Source: Deltaproteobacteria bacterium (GTDB lineage: Bacteria; Desulfobacterota; Desulfobulbia; Desulfobulbales; JAJRZW01). Taken from it: DNA of 64,000 nucleotides. The notes below the pieces were generated by a model that saw nothing but the letters and a program-made list of their open reading frames with translations, was not told the DNA's origin and did not search any database. Below are positions 12,303 through 40,479 of this stretch, in pieces (positions within the stretch are counted from its first letter, which is position 1; each line of letters starts with the position of its first letter). The stretch lies in the NCBI GenBank assembly GCA_024275015.1, contig JAJRZW010000016.1:70899-134898 (forward strand). Direction: 5' to 3'. The position numbers were made by a program, and so were the translations under genes.

Positions 12303-12331
12303 TTGACAAGGTCTTCCTGAAAATTTAGATT
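12303..12331 (+). promoter_or_regulatory. Predicted sigma70 promoter: TTGACA (12303-12308), 17 bp spacer, TAGATT (12326-12331)
   Basis: Near-consensus -35/-10 with ideal spacing upstream of the 12514 gene. Confidence 0.6.
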
Positions 12332-12513: not shown

Positions 12514-13554
12514 ATGAAGAAAAAACTGCTTGCGGTAGGAGCCGCTCTGGCGCTTGGTATTGCCGGGGCAACAGGGGCCAGCGCCCTTGACCTGAAAGGT
12601 ATCGCCTATGTCCAGGGCCACGGTGGTCATATCGCCGTTATCGACCTGGCCACCGGCGCGGTTGGCCGTTTCTCGCACGGTAAACCCTCCGACGCGGTCA
12701 CCGTGTCAAAAGACGGCAACACCCTGTTCACCTTCTCCCTTGACGGCTATGCCAAACAAATCAATGTCAACACCGGCAAACAGACGGCCTGGACCCGTCT
12801 GGGCCAGAAACACTGCGGTTCAAACTACGCCCCTGACGGAACCATCTGGGTCTCCGACATGAAAGACGGCAAAATCTACGTGTACGACCCCAAAAAAAAC
12901 AAGCTGGTTGACAGCTTCCCGGTCGCCAAATCCATCTGCGGCATCAACTTCTCCAAGGACGGCAAGTACTGCTATGTCTCCGACATGCCCGGCGGATTCA
13001 TTTCCGTGGTCAACGTCAGGACCAAAAAAGTTGTGAGCAAGATCAACGGCGTTGGTAACTTCATTCACCGGGCCGCTATCACCCCGGACGGTAAATACCT
13101 GTGGCAGTCCGAGGGTAACGAGCTTGCCAACGGCAAACCGGTTGGTGTCGGATATACCTCCACCGGCGGCTCTCCCGGCGGCGTAAGCATCGTCGACGTC
13201 AAAACCGGCAAGGTCGTTGACTTCGTCCTCACCGGCGGCAACCCCCATGACGTTGACTTCACCCCGGATGGCAGATATGCCGTAGTTGCGGTTCGGCAGA
13301 TGCCCGAACGCACCGACTCCGCCCTGATGATCGTCAACACCAAGACCAAAAGGATCGTCAAGATGTACTCTGCCTGTAAATCCTGTCACGGGGTTCAGGA
13401 CGTTGAGATCGACGATGAAATTGACGGTGGTCGGCCCTTCCTCTGCGCCGTTCAGGTCGACTGGAATCGCACTTCAATGCCCAAGGGTGTCGAGCTTGAG
13501 ACCAAAGCCCAGTCCATCCCCACGGTCAGCCCGAAATGTGCTGACCTCAAGTAG
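12514..13554 (+). CDS. NirF/cytochrome-d1-domain-like secreted beta-propeller with one CXXCH motif
   Basis: Signal peptide; YVTN-type propeller repeats; GNELANGKPVGVGY block; C-terminal CKSCH. Confidence 0.82.
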   Translation: MKKKLLAVGAALALGIAGATGASALDLKGIAYVQGHGGHIAVIDLATGAVGRFSHGKPSDAVTVSKDGNTLFTFSLDGYAKQINVNTGKQTAWTRLGQKHCGSNYAPDGTIWVSDMKDGKIYVYDPKKNKLVDSFPVAKSICGINFSKDGKYCYVSDMPGGFISVVNVRTKKVVSKINGVGNFIHRAAITPDGKYLWQSEGNELANGKPVGVGYTSTGGSPGGVSIVDVKTGKVVDFVLTGGNPHDVDFTPDGRYAVVAVRQMPERTDSALMIVNTKTKRIVKMYSACKSCHGVQDVEIDDEIDGGRPFLCAVQVDWNRTSMPKGVELETKAQSIPTVSPKCADLK

Positions 13555-13584
13555 ACCGGCATAAAACCTAAGCATTATCCATCA

Positions 13585-13625
13585 CAGGGGAGAGGGCCAC
13601 CGTTGCCCTCTCCCCTGTTTTTTCG
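13585..13625 (+). terminator. Rho-independent terminator
   Basis: Perfect 13-bp stem CAGGGGAGAGGGC/GCCCTCTCCCCTG followed by a T-run. Confidence 0.92.
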
Positions 13626-13758
13626 TCTGCCCGCCGTCTGCCGCGACAATTTGCCGCATCATGCCGGAGTGAAAATTGCTGACAAGAACCACGACAATAT
13701 GTCACATTAAAAACAATCTATTCTCTGAAAGACCTTCTCTTTTAATCGAAAAAGCCAA

Positions 13759-14964
13759 ATGAAATTAAAAATCCTCTCCCTGGCCTATTCCAATATGCGG
13801 CGCAAACTATTTCGCAGTATCGCCATTGCCCTGGCGGTAATGGTGGTCGCCGCCACCCTGTTTTCCGTCACCACGATCATGGATTCGGTCGAACAGAGCC
13901 TCGAACGCGGGACATCCCGCCTCGGCGCCGACATCATGGTGGTACCGGCCAAGGCCGAAGAAACGGCCCGAACCGCACTTCTGGCCGGCAAGCCCTCAAC
14001 TTTTTACATGGACGCGAAAATCGTCGATCAGGTCAGAAAAATAAAGGGGGTTCGCTCCGTTGCGGCCCAGACCTTTTTAAAAACCTCGACATATTCCTGC
14101 TGCGACATCAGCAATATGCTTTTAATCGGCTTTGACCAGGCCAACGACTTCACCATCAAGCCCTGGCTCACCCAAACACTTGGACGACCGCTGAAAAACG
14201 ACGAAGTCATAATGGGGCGCAACATCACCGCCTATGCCACCGGCTTTCGCCTGAACTTCTTCAACACCCCCTTCACCGTTGCCGGGATGCTGGAAGAAAC
14301 CGGGATGGACTTCATCGACAACTCGATCTTCATCCCCTTCAGCGGTCTGGAAAGAATCCGGGCCAATACGGAAAAAGACGCGAAGACCAAGGGTGCCCTG
14401 CCCGCCGGCAAGGTCTCGACCATTCTGGTGCAGGTTGAGCCACAGTTTACCGCCGACCGGGTCGGCCTGTTCATTGAGGCCGATATCAACGGGGTAAAGG
14501 CCATTGTTACCGACAAAATCATCGCCTCGGTCCGCCGGCAGATGTTCATTCTCCTTCGGAGTGTTCTGTCGGTAAGCGTTATCCTCTGGATCATGGCCCT
14601 GATCCTCATCGGGGTGGTATTTTCAATGATCGTCAATGAACGCAAAAAGGAAATCGGCATCTTCCGGGCCATGGGGGCTAAAAAAAGTCACATATTCCAC
14701 CTGGTGATGGCTGAGGCAACCATCCTCTCTCTTGTCGGCGGCGTCGTCGGCATCGCCACCGGCAGCAGTATCCTCAACATCTTCCGCGACAGCATCAATG
14801 CCAGTCTCCACGTCCCCCACCTGTGGCCGAGCCCCGGCAGAATGCTGTTTCTCATCGCCTTCTGCCTCATCCTTGCGATTCTCACCGGGGTGATCGCCGC
14901 CCTTATCCCGGCAGTCAGGGCCTCACTTATTGAACCATATGAAGCCATCCGCGGCGGAGAATAA
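13759..14964 (+). CDS. ABC transporter permease, FtsX/MacB-like
   Basis: N-terminal TM plus periplasmic domain; FtsX C-terminal NERKKEIGIFRAMGAKKSHI; contains STYSCCDIS. Confidence 0.88.
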   Translation: MKLKILSLAYSNMRRKLFRSIAIALAVMVVAATLFSVTTIMDSVEQSLERGTSRLGADIMVVPAKAEETARTALLAGKPSTFYMDAKIVDQVRKIKGVRSVAAQTFLKTSTYSCCDISNMLLIGFDQANDFTIKPWLTQTLGRPLKNDEVIMGRNITAYATGFRLNFFNTPFTVAGMLEETGMDFIDNSIFIPFSGLERIRANTEKDAKTKGALPAGKVSTILVQVEPQFTADRVGLFIEADINGVKAIVTDKIIASVRRQMFILLRSVLSVSVILWIMALILIGVVFSMIVNERKKEIGIFRAMGAKKSHIFHLVMAEATILSLVGGVVGIATGSSILNIFRDSINASLHVPHLWPSPGRMLFLIAFCLILAILTGVIAALIPAVRASLIEPYEAIRGGE

Positions 14965-15177
14965 TTCCAGGAACAGCCCTGTTGCACGCATTAACATCCC
15001 GTTAAAAAACGGATTGTTATCGGCACCCGGCTTCCGGGCCAAACCCGGAACAACTTTGTAAGCTTTGCTAAATCAAGTCGTATATTCAACAAATTAAGGC
15101 AATCAGGAAAGTTGAACAAAAACTCACAAATATTACAGTCAAAAACGGGCTAACCTGTGGCACCTGGTGAACCATAG

Positions 15178-15270
15178 CAGGCCGTTGAAAAAGCCGTCCA
15201 TGGTTTTTCAATTCCGGCAAAATCGGCGGGGTGTCCATGCGCCGCGCACAGCCCGTTTTTCAACGAGCTG
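15178..15270 (-). repeat. Family A repeat, short form
   Basis: CAGGCCGTTGAAAAAGCCGTCCATGGTTTTTCAATTCCGGCAAAATCGGCGG...CAGCCCGTTTTTCAACGAGCTG. Confidence 0.82.
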
Positions 15271-15342
15271 GTAGATGGCCCTGTAAAAAGTACTTGACCA
15301 ATATCGTCAATGACTATGGTTAAAAGCAAAAGGAGCAACACC

Positions 15343-16029
15343 ATGATTGAGGTCGTTAATCTGGAAAAAGACTATCGCCTTGAAGGGGAAACCATCAAGG
15401 CGGTCGACAATATCAACTTCAAGGTAGATCAGGGGGAGTTCATGGCCATCCTCGGTCACTCGGGCAGCGGCAAGACCACCCTGCTTAACCTCCTTGGCGG
15501 TCTCACCCGCCCCACCCACGGAACGGTAAAGATAGAAGGCCAGGACATCTGGGATCTTTCCGATAACCAGTTATCAGAGATGCGTAATGAAAAGATGAAC
15601 TTCATCTTTCAGTTCGCGAGCCTGATCCCGACCCTGAACGTCATCGACAATATCCTTCTCCCCACCGCTTTTGGCAAAAAAAGAGAACGAAAACATTACG
15701 ACCACGCCATGGAACTTCTGGGCATAGTCGGCCTCACGGAAAAAGGCCAGGCATACCCGGCTCAGCTCTCCGGCGGCCAGCAGCGGCGGGTGGCCATCGC
15801 CCGCGCCTTTATCAACGCCCCCAAAATAATATTGGCCGACGAGCCCACCGGCGATCTTGACGAAAAGACCGAGCAGGAGATGGTCAACCTCTTCCGGAAA
15901 ATGAACCAGGAAGAGAATACCACCTTTATCATTGTCACCCACAGTTCAAGCCTCGCGGCCCAGACCGATCGACAGATGCGGATGACCAGCGGCAGGCTTG
16001 AAGCAGAGCCCAACGGCTGCCCCCAATGA
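15343..16029 (+). CDS. ABC transporter ATP-binding protein (LolD/MacB-type)
   Basis: GHSGSGKTTLLN Walker A; LSGGQQRRVAIARA signature; ILADEPTGDLD; start at MIEVVN with SD AAGGAG. Confidence 0.93.
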   Translation: MIEVVNLEKDYRLEGETIKAVDNINFKVDQGEFMAILGHSGSGKTTLLNLLGGLTRPTHGTVKIEGQDIWDLSDNQLSEMRNEKMNFIFQFASLIPTLNVIDNILLPTAFGKKRERKHYDHAMELLGIVGLTEKGQAYPAQLSGGQQRRVAIARAFINAPKIILADEPTGDLDEKTEQEMVNLFRKMNQEENTTFIIVTHSSSLAAQTDRQMRMTSGRLEAEPNGCPQ

Positions 16030-17720
16030 CCGCGATTGTTTTTTTCATCACCGGCATTCTCTTTTTCATGGTGCCGCATTTCCTTCTCCCCATGGATCTC
16101 CTCTCCGGAGGACGGGGGGCATGGCTGTTAAGTGACTGCTCATTCCAGTTTCATCCGGAGACTGTAAGCGGTATCATCCTCATTCTGGCCGCGATTTTGA
16201 GAATGAAGGGGAAAAATGGATCCGTGGCGGCGTTGCTCGCCGCCGCCATTGCTCTAACCCAGGCCGCGATCATGCGGCCGTTGAGTTTTTATCTCCACAG
16301 CGAAGAAAACCTGGTCATCCTCGGCCAGACCTACTCCATGCGCGGCCACAGTCATATCCGCGAGACCCTGGTTTTTCTTGGCATGATCATCGTGGTAACC
16401 GTAATTGTCGATATATTGCTACGCCGGCGGACACGATGGACAATCAGTCTCTTTAACCTCTCGCTCAGCAATATCATGCGAAAACTGTTTCGCTCAACCG
16501 CCCTTGTCCTCGCCCTGAGCGTGGTCATCGGCGCCTTTTTTGCCGATGTTCTCCTGACCGACAGTATTAGCAACACCCTTGAGCTTGGCGCCGGCCGCCT
16601 CGGCGCCGATCTGGTGGTGGTCCCGAAAACCGCGGAAAAAGAGGCCCGCGAGGTCCTGATCAACGGCACCCCGCACATATTCAATCTTGACCGCGGGATC
16701 CTTGAAACTCTTAAAAAATGGCCGGAAATCGAAAAAATATCACCGCAACTATTCTTCCGCCCCTTCTCATACCTGGTATGCTGCACCACCGAGCAGGTTC
16801 TGGTGGTAGGATATGACCCGAAAACCGATTTCACCATCGCCCCCTGGGTCAATTATTTCCTCCATAAACGCCAGAAAAACAACGAAATCGTGGTCGGGGC
16901 CAGGGTAAAATTTTACCCTGGACAGCAAATATCTCTCTTCGGCAACCGCCTCGCGGTGGTCGCCTCTCTTGATCCCGCCGGCATTGGTTATTTTGATCGC
17001 AGCGCCTTTATCCCCATGACAGGGGCACAGGAACTGATAGAGTCCCTGAAGGATACGGAAAAAGAAGGCCGGTTGCATAAAAGAAAAAACATGAACGATC
17101 TCTCTCTGACCCATCTCTTTGATTCCCCGACTGTCCAGAAAAAACAGCTGGCCGAGGTTAATCCCCATGGAATTTCAGTGCTCATGGTAAAATGTCGTGA
17201 CGGTGTCGCGGTGAAGAAAATCGCGGCCCGAATCGAAAAGGAACTGCCCTCCACCGCGGTGGTCAACGTTCGGGCCGCGACCATCTCGGTGAAACGACAG
17301 TTGACATCCATGCTCGACGCATTTTTCCTGCCGATCATCATCCTCATGGGCATGGGCACGGTTATCCTTGCGGTGGTCTTTTCCATGAGCGCCAACGAAA
17401 GAAAACGCGAGGTCGGTCTCCTGCGGGCCATGGGGGCAAAGGAAAGAGATATATTCACCCTCTTCCTCCGCGAGGCGATAATGATCTCCATCCTTGGCGG
17501 GACATTCGGGGTATTGGGAGGAGGGTCTATTATCATCCTGTTTAAAAACAGACTCATGGCCACCCTGAACCTGCTATACATCTGGCCCCAAGCCGCAACA
17601 GTGGCCGAGGTGATCATCATTACCCTGGCCGCGAGTGTATTAATCGGTATAATTGCCGGTCTTTTTCCGGCGATCAGGGCCGCCCGTCAGGAACCATATG
17701 AATCCTTCCGCGCCAATTAA
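16026..17720 (+). CDS. ABC transporter permease, FtsX/MacB-like, with N-terminal hydrophobic extension
   Basis: ~130-aa hydrophobic N-terminal domain then FtsX permease; NERKREVGLLRAMGAKERDI; contains FSYLVCCTTEQ. Confidence 0.88.
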   Translation: MTAIVFFITGILFFMVPHFLLPMDLLSGGRGAWLLSDCSFQFHPETVSGIILILAAILRMKGKNGSVAALLAAAIALTQAAIMRPLSFYLHSEENLVILGQTYSMRGHSHIRETLVFLGMIIVVTVIVDILLRRRTRWTISLFNLSLSNIMRKLFRSTALVLALSVVIGAFFADVLLTDSISNTLELGAGRLGADLVVVPKTAEKEAREVLINGTPHIFNLDRGILETLKKWPEIEKISPQLFFRPFSYLVCCTTEQVLVVGYDPKTDFTIAPWVNYFLHKRQKNNEIVVGARVKFYPGQQISLFGNRLAVVASLDPAGIGYFDRSAFIPMTGAQELIESLKDTEKEGRLHKRKNMNDLSLTHLFDSPTVQKKQLAEVNPHGISVLMVKCRDGVAVKKIAARIEKELPSTAVVNVRAATISVKRQLTSMLDAFFLPIIILMGMGTVILAVVFSMSANERKREVGLLRAMGAKERDIFTLFLREAIMISILGGTFGVLGGGSIIILFKNRLMATLNLLYIWPQAATVAEVIIITLAASVLIGIIAGLFPAIRAARQEPYESFRAN

Positions 17721-17762
17721 TTATATGACGGAGTTACGAGACCATCTATATAAGGAGAAAAA

Positions 17763-18731
17763 ATGCGCTACCCCGCCGTTATACTGACCATAACCCTTCT
17801 TCTCCTCAGCGCCTGCAGTCAGGAGGATGAAGCCTCGTACACCCCGCCAAGGTATACCGCCACAGTATACGCCCTAGCCGCATCCGACCACATAGCCGTC
17901 CTTCACCTTAAAGACAATAAACTCGAACAAATCAAACTGGATCGGGAGGGGGCGGATCTCGCCACCGTTGACGGTCGGCTATTTATCCTCTCCACCGACG
18001 GAGCCGTCGCCGAGATAAGGAACCTGATCGTTGGTAAATGGACCCGGGTCAGCGATCACGGCGTTTCCCTGGCGATGAAAGACAAAAACACCCTTCTGGT
18101 TCTCGGCCGGACAGAGATATGCCTGTATAAACCCGGCAGCGGAGTAAAACAGCGGGTAGCCCTGAAAAAAAGGGCAAGCGCGATCAGCTTTGACCGGCAA
18201 AAGAACCTGATCTGGGCCATCGACCGCAAAGGCAGCCGGGCATTCAGCCTCAACGGTGATAGTTTCAAGCTGGTTAAAAAGATTGACGGCATCGGCAATT
18301 CCCCCCACCACGCCCTGTCCTTTCCGGGTACCAACGAGATCTGGGTCGCCGAGGGTAACGAGTTTATGAACGGCAAACCATACGGGGTCGGCTATGCCGG
18401 AAACGGAGTGGCGGCAAGCGGAGGGATCAACGTGGTTGACACCATAAACGGCCGCCAGACCGATTTCATCATCGTCGGCGGCAATGTTGTGGATCTCACT
18501 CTCTCGGCGGACAAGAAAAAAATATATGTCGCCACCAGCCAGTACCCCGAATATCTCGATGCGACCATGACGGTTGTTGACCCTGAACAACGGCGGGGAA
18601 AGGCCGAGTTCCGCCTCTGCCTCTACTGCCATGAAGAGCACAACGTCGAGCCCAAGGATGGCAGGGCCATAGTCCGAGCCATGGCGGTTGTCGAGCCTTT
18701 GGTGAAGCCCGTCTCCGGGAAGAAACCATGA
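17763..18731 (+). CDS. NirF/cytochrome-d1-like lipoprotein beta-propeller with one CXXCH motif
   Basis: Lipobox LLLLSAC; shares GNxHHAL...EGNEFMNGKPYGVGY with the 12514 product; CLYCH. Confidence 0.78.
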   Translation: MRYPAVILTITLLLLSACSQEDEASYTPPRYTATVYALAASDHIAVLHLKDNKLEQIKLDREGADLATVDGRLFILSTDGAVAEIRNLIVGKWTRVSDHGVSLAMKDKNTLLVLGRTEICLYKPGSGVKQRVALKKRASAISFDRQKNLIWAIDRKGSRAFSLNGDSFKLVKKIDGIGNSPHHALSFPGTNEIWVAEGNEFMNGKPYGVGYAGNGVAASGGINVVDTINGRQTDFIIVGGNVVDLTLSADKKKIYVATSQYPEYLDATMTVVDPEQRRGKAEFRLCLYCHEEHNVEPKDGRAIVRAMAVVEPLVKPVSGKKP

Positions 18732-19255
18732 AAGTCGGCGCCGTCATCATTCTTGTCGCCATCGTTGTCGCCTTTGCCTCACCGCAACAGGCAACAGCGG
18801 TAATTCCACCATGGGAGATCGAAGGGCTCAAGAACAAACCGGCCCCGGAATTTTCGGCCAAAGACGTCGCAGGCAACAATCATATTCTGAAAGAATACCG
18901 CGGCAGGGTGGTGCTTATAAACTTCTGGGCCACCTGGTGTTCCCCCTGTCGCCGTGAAATGCCTTCCCTGATAAAACTTTACCATAAATACAATAACCAG
19001 GGGCTTGTCCTGCTCGCGGTGAGCGTCGATGAACAGCGGCGGGCGGTAGAAAACTTCACCCGCAAGCTACCCCTGCCCTTTCCGGTGATTTCCGACCCGG
19101 AGGAAAAGATATCATCCCACTACAAGGTCTTTGCCTACCCGACCTCATTCCTCATCGACAGGAACGGCATAATCAGGAAAATAATCACCGGTGAACGCGA
19201 CTGGCTGGCTCCGGAGTTCACCGCCAGGCTTGAAAAAATGATGGGAGTGGACTGA
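18728..19255 (+). CDS. TlpA/ResA-like thioredoxin-family protein
   Basis: Signal peptide; NFWATWCSPCRREMPSL active site. Confidence 0.93.
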   Translation: MKVGAVIILVAIVVAFASPQQATAVIPPWEIEGLKNKPAPEFSAKDVAGNNHILKEYRGRVVLINFWATWCSPCRREMPSLIKLYHKYNNQGLVLLAVSVDEQRRAVENFTRKLPLPFPVISDPEEKISSHYKVFAYPTSFLIDRNGIIRKIITGERDWLAPEFTARLEKMMGVD

Positions 19256-19367: not shown

Positions 19368-19913
19368 ATGAAGAAAAAAAACCTGCTCATAATTATCATC
19401 GCCCTGGCGATCGTCGTTGCCGTCAGCGGACGATGGGAAACTGTCGGCAATAGTGAAATCGCGGCCCGAACCTCCATCTTCGGCCCGATATCGACCTATG
19501 GCCCCGGCGATAAGGTTTTTGTCCTCCCCGGGGTCTATAAACTACTCCGATTCAAGGCCGAGGCGGTGAATATTGATCTCAGCGGTGACGCAGCCATAAT
19601 GATTGGCACCGGAGCTACCAGGAAGACAGTGGAATGCCAGATTGCCTACACCCTCAGCGACCCGGCGGCACTGATAAAAAAATTCGGCATCACCCCGCCG
19701 GGGGGAGAAATCAAGACGGAGATAAAAAAAATCATCAGCAGCGAACTTTACGCCGCAGCAAAGACCGACAAGGATTTCATGGGCACCATACCATCCAGGG
19801 TCCTTCTGACCGCCAGACTGCTGGATACCCTGAGCCAAAGACTTAATCCGGTGGGGATAAAACCACAAAGCCTCAACCTGCGCCTGCGGAAAGACGCAAA
19901 AAAGCCGGCCTGA
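19368..19913 (+). CDS. Small SPFH/Band-7-like membrane-anchored protein
   Basis: N-terminal TM anchor; prohibitin-like VFVLPGVYK...DIxxK region; assignment by eye. Confidence 0.6.
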   Translation: MKKKNLLIIIIALAIVVAVSGRWETVGNSEIAARTSIFGPISTYGPGDKVFVLPGVYKLLRFKAEAVNIDLSGDAAIMIGTGATRKTVECQIAYTLSDPAALIKKFGITPPGGEIKTEIKKIISSELYAAAKTDKDFMGTIPSRVLLTARLLDTLSQRLNPVGIKPQSLNLRLRKDAKKPA

Positions 19914-20058: not shown

Positions 20059-20445
20059 TTACCAGCTTTTGCTAAGCTTCGCCTTGACCGTGGGAGCGGT
20101 AGCACCGGACGGAGTCTCTGCGGTTGAAACCCAGATGGAATAACTGCCGGTAATGCTGTTAAGGCTCGATCCCGAAATCGTCCACCCCTCCGGCAACTCT
20201 TCCATGGCCGCCACCAGAGTGTTGGCGTCACTTATGGCGGTGGTTTTACTCGGGCTGAAAAGCCTTGAAGCAAAATTAACCGCAGCGGCGGCAGAGGCGC
20301 CGCCGTAAACTCCATCAGCCGCCGCCCTGGCCGCCTCGGTACGCAGGTCCTGATATTTCGGTACCGCAACCGCGGCCAGAAGCCCGAGGATAACAATTAC
20401 CATCACCAGTTCAATCAAGGTAAAACCACGATTATTCCTCAACAT
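20059..20445 (-). CDS. Type IV major pilin-like protein
   Basis: GFTLIELVMVIVILGLLAAVAVPKYQDL prepilin signal. Confidence 0.93.
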   Translation of the reverse strand: MLRNNRGFTLIELVMVIVILGLLAAVAVPKYQDLRTEAARAAADGVYGGASAAAAVNFASRLFSPSKTTAISDANTLVAAMEELPEGWTISGSSLNSITGSYSIWVSTAETPSGATAPTVKAKLSKSW

Positions 20446-20645
20446 GAATACCGCCTCCCTCTTTAGGGCACCTTTTAGACGTACCTTTTCATCCGACAAC
20501 TGCGTCAACACCGAAACAGCTCACATAATCTATGAAAATGATATGCTTTCATATTTCGGAGCCCCTTTGTTCCCGGACAAAAAATAAAAAAGGTATCCGT
20601 TAGTAAGATTTAACAACAGCCGTCCTTTCTACCTTATTATTTACC

Positions 20646-20860
20646 TGGATCCGTGACGGCTTAGTGGCAACCGAGTATGTATTCATCTGAATTCATGCGT
20701 TTTTTGCCGGATTTTCACTCCGGCGGGAATTTCACCCCGCCGCCCTTCGGGCGTCCGGGAACGACTCATCCGCGGTGTCGGCAACCCGTTGATATACCGA
20801 AGTATAATCAACGTGCTTGCCTCCTTGCGCCTGCGCCGTTCCCGAACGTCACGGATCCAA
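20646..20860. repeat. MITE-like element with 13-bp perfect terminal inverted repeats (family D)
   Basis: TGGATCCGTGACG at 20646-20658 and exact reverse complement CGTCACGGATCCA at 20848-20860. Confidence 0.7.
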
Positions 20861-21010
20861 GTATTTAATAATATCACATGGTTCATTGATAAAAGCAAAA
20901 AAAACCGCCTTATTGCTTTTTCCCGACGACCAAACTATCCTATTCGCCCATCAAACACATTCCATATTGCGCCTGTTCCAGCCATAAATCATCGTCTTGA
21001 GGAAAAAGAG

Positions 21011-21901
21011 ATGGACCTGCATCACCTGAGAATATTCACCACTGTTTACGGTTGCGGCAGCTTTACCGGCGCGTCAAAAAAATTAGCCATCAGCCAGCCG
21101 ACCATAAGCGAACACATAAAGAACCTTGAGACAGAACTGTGTCTCACCCTCTTTGACCGGCTGGGTCGTTCGATAAAACCCACGGACGCGGCCCGAAGCC
21201 TTTTCCCCAGAGCCTTGAAAATAATTGACGACCTCGATTCCCTGAAAAATGATCTACAGCAGCAGGGCGACCCACTGGCCGGAGAACTGACCATTGGCGC
21301 CAGCACCATTCCCGGGGAATATATTCTCCCGGGGATAGCGGCAAAATTTAAAAGAAAAAACGAACTGGTAAGATTCAACGTCGAAGTCCACGATTCCGCT
21401 GATATCTGCCGGATGGTCGCCGGACACGAAGTGATTATCGGCATCGTCGGCGCCAGGAGTCAGGACAAACACCTGAACTTCAGGGCGGTATTCAACGACG
21501 AGCTTCTGCTTGTGGCCCCGGCAACAACAGGGTATCCCGACCAAATCACTATTGCAGACTTACGCGATCTGCCATTCATCTGTCGCGAGGAGGGATCAGG
21601 GACCCAAAAAAGCGTTGCCAGGATATTGGCAGCCCATGGGGTCGAGGTGGAAAGACTGACAAAAACGGCTACCCTGGGTTCAAGCACCGCGGCCAAGGAG
21701 GCGGTAAAAGCCGGGCTCGGGGTGGCGATAATATCCTCCCTCGCCATCAGGGACGAGCTTGACTCCCGACGGATGAAAAAAATCACGGTCAAAGGCCTTG
21801 AGATGAAAAGACGATTCTTCCTGGTTACCCACCGCAAACGCACTCTCCCCCACCTCTATCAGGCCTTCATCACCTCCATTAAACACGACCTGAAACCGTG
21901 A
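21011..21901 (+). CDS. LysR-family transcriptional regulator (resembles the selenium-metabolism-associated subgroup)
   Basis: MDLHHLRIFTTVYGCGSFTGASKKLAISQPTISEHI HTH; true start is downstream of the listed ORF start. Confidence 0.88.
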   Translation: MDLHHLRIFTTVYGCGSFTGASKKLAISQPTISEHIKNLETELCLTLFDRLGRSIKPTDAARSLFPRALKIIDDLDSLKNDLQQQGDPLAGELTIGASTIPGEYILPGIAAKFKRKNELVRFNVEVHDSADICRMVAGHEVIIGIVGARSQDKHLNFRAVFNDELLLVAPATTGYPDQITIADLRDLPFICREEGSGTQKSVARILAAHGVEVERLTKTATLGSSTAAKEAVKAGLGVAIISSLAIRDELDSRRMKKITVKGLEMKRRFFLVTHRKRTLPHLYQAFITSIKHDLKP

Positions 21902-38562: not shown

Positions 38563-40479
38563 TCACGATCCCCCGCCCCGGAGAACCCGCTTGTCCCCCA
38601 CCCGCAGGGTAATCTTTTCCCGATCGAAATACTCCAGCAGGGGGATGGAAAATTTACGCGACAGCCCGGTCAGGCCCTTGAACCCCTGGGCATCAATATC
38701 ACCGTGTTTATTGATATGAGCGACAAGATCCTCCCTGAGAGAGGCGATGGCCGCGGCACTGAAATACAGGTCAACACTAACTTTTACCAGGACCCGGTCA
38801 TCAATCAGGATCCCGACAAGACCCATGATCTCATCACGACCGGCGTCGATCCGGGCGACGACCTCGTTGATGGTGGGGACCTTTAGTCCGGCCTCGCCGT
38901 AGGCGGCGATAATCTCGTCCCTGATCGCGGTATCATCACGGTTAAGGGCGACCTTGAACCGCGGCAGCCGCACCAGGGCCCCGTCGCTTACGATCTTCCC
39001 GCCCTTCTCAAGTTCATTGCAGAGACGGTTGAAAAGCCGCTGTTCTCCCTCTCCCAAGAGGCGGGAGCGCAATTCCTCCCTGCCGGCCCCCTGTTTTACC
39101 GGATTTTTCGCGTGAAAATCGGCTATCAAATCCAGGAGCCGGACCTGGAGATCTTCATAGACCTCAACCGCGATCATCCTCCGGCTATCTGGTTCAACCA
39201 CGATGATCTTACGGGCCGCGACCGCCGGGTCAATGAGTTTTTCAAGCCGGCGGCCAAAGACGGCGCAGCGGACCTCAAGCTCATGAAAACCAACCCCCCG
39301 GCGGCCGCTTTCGCGCAGATGCTGGATGGCGAACTCAAGCCGGTTCTCGCTGCGATAGACCGCAAAGGTCCCCTGGTTTATCTCTTTATATCGCCGCCTC
39401 TTCGGCGGCAGACTGTTCAGGACCACCCCGCCGCCGATGGTGGTAACCGGCGAATAACGGCGGATGACGAAGTGGTCGCCGGGCCAGACCGCGGCCCGGG
39501 TCTCAAGGTTAAGCTGAACATCGGCCGTGTCCCCGGGGAAGAGCTCGTCCCGGTCAAGGAGAATGACCCGGGCCATGATCTCGGCGGTACCCAGGTGAAG
39601 ACGGACCCGGGTCCGATTCTTGATTGGCTTGGTATTAGCGGAAAGATAATTCATTTCCACGTCGAGAAGCCAGGATGGCAGAAGACAGCCGGCCGTGGCC
39701 AGTACCTCTCCACGGTGAATTTCCTCCTTGTCCATCCCCTGAATATTTATGGCGGTCCGATGACCGGCCTCAGCCGCCTCAACGCTGCGGGAATGAAATT
39801 GAATCCCGCGGATACGGCCTTTTTTTCCCTCGGGATAGATGACGATCTCATCGGTGACCGCGATCCGCCCGGAAATGGCAGTGCCGGTAACCACCGCCCC
39901 GAACCCCTTGATACTGAAAATCCGGTCCACCGGAAGACGGAAGGGACCGGTGGCGGCGAAAAAATCGCTGTCAGCCACCAACCGGTCGATGGCGGCGACC
40001 ACCTGGTCGCGGCCGGAGTTATCAACCGCGGAAAACTCCACCATTGGCGCGGATTCTAAAAAAGTGTCGCGGAAAAAATCGCCGATATCCTCACGGACCA
40101 TTTCCAGCCATTCCGGCTCGACGAGATCGGTCTTGGTGAGGACAACAAGCCCCTTTCTGATCCCGAGCAGACGACAGATCTCAAAGTGTTCCCGGGTCTG
40201 GGGCATTACCCCCTCGTCGGCGGCAATGACAAAAGCGACCAGATCCACCCCGGCGGCTCCGGCCACCATATTGCGGACAAAACGCTCGTGTCCCGGGACA
40301 TCGACAATGCCGAGACGGTGGCCGCAGGGGAGGTCAAGATGGGCGAAACCGAGCTCAATCGTGATTCCCCTGGCCTTTTCCTCCTTCAGACGATCGGTGT
40401 CGACTCCGGTCAGGGCCCGGACCAGTGAGGTCTTACCGTGATCCACGTGGCCGGCGGTGCCTAATACCAGTTCACGCAT
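38563..40479 (-). CDS. selB: Selenocysteine-specific translation elongation factor
   Basis: [36 protein letters not shown]-terminal winged-helix region. Confidence 0.95.

Follow-up and report, generated by a model that had tools for sequence, protein, structure and literature searches.

A beta-propeller and FtsX-type ABC module of Desulfobulbales and Nitrospirota with a probable role in envelope metal handling

The copper chaperone NosL, a Cu(I) binder of very high affinity, is required to form the CuZ centre in the seven-bladed propeller of NosZ, for which NosDFY has been proposed as the sulfide supply (PMC6530538). Propellers also accompany other ATP-binding cassette (ABC) systems: PedA1A2BC joins a YVTN propeller to an ABC transporter and is required for growth at low lanthanide (PMC6839425), and AztD is a propeller that passes zinc to an ABC system (PMC6689063). 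The Fet system comprises two homologous FtsX permeases, an ATPase and a thioredoxin (PMC10783030), and force is transmitted to periplasmic partners by FtsX-type ABC machines (PMC11491553). Here we analyse a module that resembles parts of each, found in a 64,000-nucleotide stretch (the window) of contig JAJRZW010000016.1 from a Desulfobulbales bacterium whose genome spans 2.45 Mb over 76 contigs. On one strand (+) the module encodes a secreted beta-propeller (propeller A), an FtsX permease (perm1), an ATPase, a second FtsX permease (perm2), a lipoprotein propeller (propeller B) and a TlpA-like thioredoxin.

The probable task of the module is to load or handle a metal outside the cytoplasm, copper being the likeliest candidate. 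We favour, at a probability of roughly 0.4, an envelope metalloprotein system in which a type VII (FtsX-like) ABC machine supplies a haem-c propeller with metal or services it, in the manner of NosDFYL and NosZ. No published description of this combination of propellers and FtsX-type ABC proteins was found, most subscription papers lying outside the literature searched, and no curated protein family covering these propellers was found.

A propeller and ABC gene set kept in two phyla

An earlier note on this DNA, made from the sequence alone, had listed the six genes in this order and on this strand and had read CKSCH and CLYCH motifs in the two propellers; open reading frames (ORFs) and Pfam domains bear out the former, and both motifs lie in the propeller genes (Table 1). 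It overlooked a seventh gene, 3' of TlpA, whose small product has no Pfam match of its own. Homologues occur in four of the compared loci (L017:16456-16998, L021, L028 and L118), and the one at L118:1225-1761 matches Band_7 (PF01145) at 2.9e-12; through that homologue the protein is assigned, by sequence, to the Band_7/SPFH-like family. In L017 and L021 the homologue comes after TlpA, in L028 directly after propeller B.

Propeller A shares 88, 79, 76, 74 and 73% identity with its nearest relatives, all from Desulfobulbales, and 64-67% with Nitrospirota orthologues, which are arranged as A-perm1-ATPase. The full order A-perm1-ATPase-perm2-B-TlpA-SPFH is retained in L017, and L028 keeps it up to B. 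Partial order is found in L020 and L021, the latter reading A-perm1-ATPase followed further on by TlpA-SPFH. Among 65 CxxCH propellers from Desulfobulbales and Nitrospirota, the two phylum-level groups sampled in depth, 58 have an FtsX permease within 6 kb and 50 have both permease and ATPase; several of the loci without them are contig ends. Genes in the compared loci were predicted with a simple ORF-calling script, which may have miscalled some of the small ones. Because permease and ATPase recur at 50 of the 65 loci, with the order kept in L017 and L028, chance adjacency of propellers and ABC genes is excluded by the neighbourhood survey that the earlier note had proposed; the genes form a conserved unit.

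The propeller family is present in 16 of 258 Desulfobulbales genomes (order-level search, looser cut-off) and in 69 of 296 Nitrospirota genomes, about a quarter, while a profile search across Desulfobacterota at a strict cut-off returned the window's genome as its sole match. Since the Desulfobulbales propeller A proteins nest among those of Nitrospirota in the tree, the sequences suggest a transfer of propeller A between the two groups.

FtsX, MacB_PCD, ABC_tran and AhpC-TSA domains all score above Pfam cut-offs in the module proteins. Both permeases carry PF02687 and PF12704 above cut-off and the ATPase is a separate protein, which broadly agrees with a type VII ABC system. A fold search placed the permeases nearest MacB, LolCDE and HrtBA, with YbbAP lower in the list. 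Scores against the corresponding NCBIfam models are low for LolCE (28 and 53 bits, cut-off 362) and MacB (33 to 37 bits, cut-off 966); the LolD model gives the ATPase 246 bits, below its cut-off of 308. Each permease has a vicinal cysteine pair (CC) in its periplasmic domain, invariant in both alignments (A3 and A5) and present in 64 of 67 FtsX permeases near propellers.

Perm2 forms a clade of its own (100/100 support), and its N-terminal membrane domain weakly resembles DUF4418 (20.1 bits, E 8e-4, below the cut-off of 27). In Fusobacterium and Treponema, DUF4418 is a separate gene immediately before CC permeases, and in L200 a DUF4418-lookalike protein likewise immediately precedes the CC permease. 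The analysis suggests that DUF4418 and the CC permease make up a separate, metal-linked module. Sets of a DUF4418-like protein, a CC-type FtsX permease and an ATPase were also seen beside P19/Fet-type operons (L200:2115-4436 and L085:5536-7862). On a plasmid of Methylocella tundrae (L083:4049-7890), a 614-residue protein with a propeller-like stretch is followed by an FtsX permease and an ATPase; this set, without CC or CxxCH, is possibly a distant cousin in an aerobic methanotroph.

Propellers with a haem-c motif and a candidate metal site

Propeller A is Sec-secreted, with a single CxxCH near its C-terminus. Propeller B, also with a single CxxCH, is its paralogue at about 28% identity. The motif thus lies in exported proteins, and the window's genome holds cytochrome c assembly genes (PF01578 matches), as expected of a c-type cytochrome; by its sequence, CxxCH would imply a c-type haem in both propellers. 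Family and profile searches gave generic YVTN-type propellers as the nearest sequence matches. NosZ kinship was rejected: L-NosZ is the top NCBIfam match of propeller A, at 60 bits against a cut-off of 700 and over repeat stretches only.

Counting strands in the predicted structure of propeller A (mean predicted local distance difference test, pLDDT, 85.4; predicted template-modelling score, pTM, 0.83) gives six A-B-C-D blades, the first of which is completed by the final inner strand (310-316). A Foldseek search with this model returned the YVTN protein 1l0q first, and the best matches, mostly seven-bladed, reached TM-scores of only about 0.5-0.57 (query-normalised).

In the model, C101, C142, H185, H245, C311 and position 60 each occupy position two or three of an innermost strand, one per blade over six consecutive blades, and this Cys/His set would ring one end of the central channel. 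CxxCH and H39 are present in all 67 aligned propellers; C101 is found in 64 of them, C142 in 49, H185 in 52, and H245 and C311 in 61 each. The proteins in which H245 and C311 are both absent are exactly six, all propeller-B-like and forming a single clade (100/100 support) in the tree of the 67 proteins. Three of these, from Desulfobulbales, lack C101 and C142 too, and all six keep CxxCH and H39. Because the B-like proteins drop the Cys/His set yet retain CxxCH and H39, the sequences seem to combine two separable features, a haem-c site common to all propellers and a Cys/His site that the lipoprotein paralogue no longer has.

The tree contains several clades, each fully supported, save that the B clade falls inside the A group. 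In the more distant clade, prop75, the Cys/His set is shifted, with His at the blade 2 position and Phe in place of H185. The prop81 clade (L079-L082 and L025) often adjoins genes for a histidine kinase, an NtrC-type regulator and a PstS-like periplasmic binding protein (107 bits to TIGR02136 in L081), neighbours that possibly serve substrate sensing.

Copper-chaperone neighbourhoods and locus layout

In Nitrospirota genomes with the propeller, 19 of the 31 PCuAC genes lie within 3 kb of a propeller against 0.1 expected, and 17 of the 122 NosL genes within 5 kb against 0.63, the expected counts assuming uniform placement in a 2.9 Mb genome. The association also holds between genomes: across the 296 Nitrospirota, the propeller is present in 29 of the 34 genomes that have PCuAC and in 54 of the 71 that have NosL (odds ratios 32 and 44, respectively). 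Four loci or locus pairs (L018/L072, L118, L119 and L121) read A-(small)-perm1-ATPase-PCuAC-(small)-NosL. Perm2 and a B-like propeller are additionally present in L118, L119 and L121, and TlpA and the SPFH gene in L118, which hence holds the complete gene set of the window plus copper chaperones. PCuAC, SCO1 and a propeller stand in a row in L157. The relatives' neighbours thus support the metal-handling envelope system put forward in the earlier note, and the metal they most likely point to is copper, not iron.

NosL also occurs in Desulfobulbales, where most of the NosL-bearing genomes inspected have an operon TlpA-NosL-(~100 aa)-FtsX-ATPase-membrane protein. The last gene encodes a membrane protein of about 340 residues with CPFC and SCC motifs and no Pfam or NCBIfam match. 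This operon adjoins a divergent ATPase/propeller/CC-permease set in L075, L171, L172, L173, L174 and L178. The window's genome and five close relatives gave no TIGR04246 match for NosZ, and none of the 13 Desulfobulbales genomes tested had NosZ beyond a trace match, so NosL in Desulfobulbales serves something other than NosZ. Its operon is probably copper-related. In some Nitrospirota, NosZ-family genes lie near other NosL genes, on other contigs, so not all Nitrospirota NosL belongs to propellers.

Within the window (Table 1), the promoter-like site before propeller A is the best of the region. Given this site and the strong terminator that follows the gene, propeller A may be expressed apart from the other genes, possibly in excess of them. 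Four-base overlaps join ATPase to perm2 and propeller B to TlpA. The ATPase probably starts at 15343 rather than 15310, because its homologues and an AGGAG site point there. The gap between perm1 and ATPase (14965-15342) is unusually long, about 380 bases compared with about 80 in L017, and contains palindromic stretches around GTTGAAAAA/TTTTTCAAC with the look of a dispersed intergenic repeat; one pattern search of the window found no second good copy.

Table 1. Features of the module in the window, with two NosL operons; positions are those of the window unless a locus is named
Feature	Coordinates	Strand	Basis and remarks
Promoter-like site, 5' of propeller A	12303..12331	+	TTGACA-17-TAGATT, 10/12 matches; consensus match only
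Propeller A, secreted beta-propeller, one CxxCH	12514..13554	+	CKSCH at 13375-13389; ORF, motif and alignment
Intrinsic terminator, immediately 3' of propeller A	13584..13618	+	14-pair stem, T run; strongest terminator-like site of the region
Perm1, FtsX/MacB-type permease	13759..14964	+	PF02687 65.8 bits, PF12704 46.6 bits; vicinal Cys pair 14098-14103
LolD-like ABC ATPase	15343..16029 (ORF from 15310)	+	PF00005 127 bits; LolD model below cut-off (see text)
Perm2, second FtsX permease	16026..17720	+	PF02687 64.8 bits; CC pair 16779-16784; DUF4418-like N-terminus ~16044-16415
Propeller B, lipoprotein (LSAC), one CxxCH	17763..18731	+	CLYCH at 18618-18632; paralogue of A
TlpA/ResA-like periplasmic thioredoxin	18728..19255	+	PF00578 116 bits; active site CSPC 18938-18949
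Small membrane-anchored Band_7/SPFH-like protein	19368..19913	+	Homologues beside TlpA in relatives
NosL operon, window's genome (contig C64)	L166:4365-9213
NosL operon, further example	L173:5547-9848

Downstream, a solitary gene resembling type IV pilin or GspG genes (GFTLIELVMVIVILGLLAAVAVPKY; 20059-20511, -) lies between the module and a LysR regulator gene (20789-21901, +), which scores 274 bits against a cut-off of 250 with the NCBIfam 'selenium metabolism-associated' model. A SelB-like elongation factor gene at 38563-40479 (-) was recognised from its start sequence alone.

The readings weighed and known systems compared

Combining the NosL/CuZ precedent with force transmission by FtsX machines, we propose, as the most economical reading, that the ABC proteins load or reload the Cys/His site of propeller A. 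The sequences establish the gene content and order, their conservation, the motifs, the joint loss of the Cys/His set in propeller B and the association of relatives with copper chaperones; haem attachment, the identity of the metal, the direction of its flow, the ABC mechanism and the role of each part are what we infer from them. On this view propeller A would carry one c-type haem at CxxCH, with H39 possibly serving as the other axial ligand, and the opening of its central channel would hold a second metal site rich in Cys and His. The FtsX pair and the ATPase would form a mechanotransmitting type VII machine that imports no solute and acts on periplasmic partners, so that cytoplasmic ATP would drive loading, reloading or stripping of the metal of propeller A. 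The lipoprotein propeller B would be a membrane-anchored electron-transfer or docking partner, and TlpA would keep metal-binding and haem-attachment thiols reduced. The metal would most likely be copper, perhaps with sulfide, delivered in many relatives by NosL or PCuAC.

Several points weigh against this proposal. CxxCH can bind metals in place of haem, and the geometry of the Cys/His site is taken from the strand register of the model, not from coordinates. The relatives share descent, so that p-values for the copper-chaperone association are overstated and the counts are the evidence. NosL or PCuAC lies within 10 kb of only 37 of 92 Nitrospirota propellers, and given this figure the metal may be supplied by different routes or may be one other than copper. 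Neither the window locus nor those of the closest Desulfobulbales relatives have NosL, PCuAC or SCO beside the module (TlpA is present), and the NosL operon of the window's genome is on another contig, with no propeller there.

A broader claim is doubtful: that these propellers are a new class of periplasmic enzyme, containing haem c and copper and built by a dedicated FtsX-type machine that runs on ATP, present in Desulfobulbales and Nitrospirota, and a second, independent route beside NosZ/NosDFYL to a copper(-sulfide) centre in a propeller. If the favoured reading is true, it would mean dedicated ATP-driven assembly of a periplasmic copper/haem protein in largely anaerobic bacteria and would show how copper is used or tamed in sulfidic habitats. 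The principle known from NosDFY, in which an ABC machine assembles a metal centre beyond the membrane, would then apply to the FtsX/MacB superfamily as well. The module also offers a lead to the function of DUF4418 and of the NosL-TlpA-FtsX operon in bacteria without NosZ.

The main rivals follow in falling order: a metal transporter whose receptor is the propeller, then trafficking of sulfur, then an iron system like that of P19 and lastly the handling of haem d1. In the first, the propeller would be the periplasmic receptor of an ABC transporter that carries copper, or some other metal, through the inner membrane, by import or export, with TlpA as reductant. PedA1A2BC (PMC6839425) and AztD (PMC6689063) are precedents, and the copper chaperones near relatives fit this role too. 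The locus encodes no substrate-binding protein, however, and a receptor needs no covalent haem. FtsX/MacB-type permeases act on periplasmic partners and, to our knowledge, none is an importer, which also counts against a transporter; we regard it as unlikely.

Copper-sulfur or thiol trafficking, with the CC permeases moving sulfur species for a propeller cofactor or for detoxification of sulfide-bound metal, is clearly improbable. Four Nitrospirota loci (L118, L120, L121 and L147) have a TsuA/YeeE-like sulfur transporter upstream of the propeller, and the vicinal Cys pair, TlpA and the sulfide proposal for NosDFY (PMC6530538) point the same way; but the window locus has no sulfur transporter, and CC pairs may equally bind metal.

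More improbable still is a branch of the P19/FTR1 (FetMP-FetABCDEF) iron systems with propellers in place of P19 and FTR1. The earlier note had seen this resemblance, and the parts list, two FtsX permeases, an ATPase and a thioredoxin, does agree (PMC10783030). Kinship of the permeases does not: in a tree including real P19-operon permeases (L196 and L199), these and the Fet-type pair of L085 branch apart as one clade (100/100) that lacks CC, and a P19-type identity was rejected. P19 (PF10634) is absent from the window's genome, no FTR1 permease was found in the gene cluster, to which that search was confined, and the relatives' neighbours are copper chaperones. A CC permease with DUF4418 lies directly beside a P19/FTR1-type operon in L200 and beside the Fet-type pair in L085; in the Nitrospirota locus L019 the gene after the module is FtrD-like. 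Because the pair in L200 adjoins a P19-bearing operon, a functional link of CC permeases to P19-type systems is possible in some bacteria, though the families differ.

Synthesis or transport of haem d1 or another tetrapyrrole by NirF-like propellers, the earlier note's tetrapyrrole reading, is very unlikely. Its description of the propellers as d1-like survives in a weak partial match of propeller A to Cytochrom_D1 (PF02239; 29.2 bits, cut-off 25.5, best stretch 84 residues), which several other propeller models outscore, and fails for propeller B, which matches no propeller family in Pfam. The family profile matches the NirF structure 6tv2 across 138 residues (5.8e-10), and the haem exporter HrtBA is among the fold neighbours of perm1; but NirF ranks only seventeenth, and partially, in the profile search, behind 16 better-matching propellers. 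NirF and NirS propellers are eight-bladed, in contrast to the six blades counted here, and the invariant CxxCH implies a c-type haem. A genome-wide search, made with PF02239 only and not with other nir genes, gave no match at E<=0.001 and hence no d1 gene of NirS or NirF strength, although this quick search also missed the weak match of propeller A. Haem d1 synthesis was rejected, as family and profile searches favour generic propellers.

Least probable of all is ordinary LolCDE lipoprotein sorting or MacAB macrolide or peptide efflux beside unrelated propellers, which the earlier note had named as a possible refutation: the ATPase is LolD-like and the permease fold MacB/LolC-like, but we rejected it since family scores are far below cut-offs, no MacA or TolC is adjacent, and the propeller linkage is kept in two phyla.

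Among known systems, NosDFY-NosL is likewise an ABC machine and a Cu(I) chaperone serving a periplasmic beta-propeller metalloenzyme; the module differs in its FtsX/MacB-type permeases instead of NosY, the lack of NosD and the CxxCH of its propeller. PedA1A2BC, for lanthanide uptake, likewise couples a YVTN-type propeller of the periplasm to an ABC transporter and has a metal phenotype, and differs in having a substrate-binding protein. MacB, LolCDE and HrtBA share the permease fold and a LolD-like ATPase, whereas the module has its vicinal Cys pair and a fixed propeller partner. With the P19/FTR1 and FetMP-FetABCDEF systems it has the parts list in common, but its CC permeases are of another clade and it has propellers where no P19 exists. 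To NirF and NirS the likeness is that of a periplasmic propeller with weak repeat-level similarity; the module's propellers are six-bladed by count, give no full-length d1 match and carry an invariant CxxCH within the propeller.

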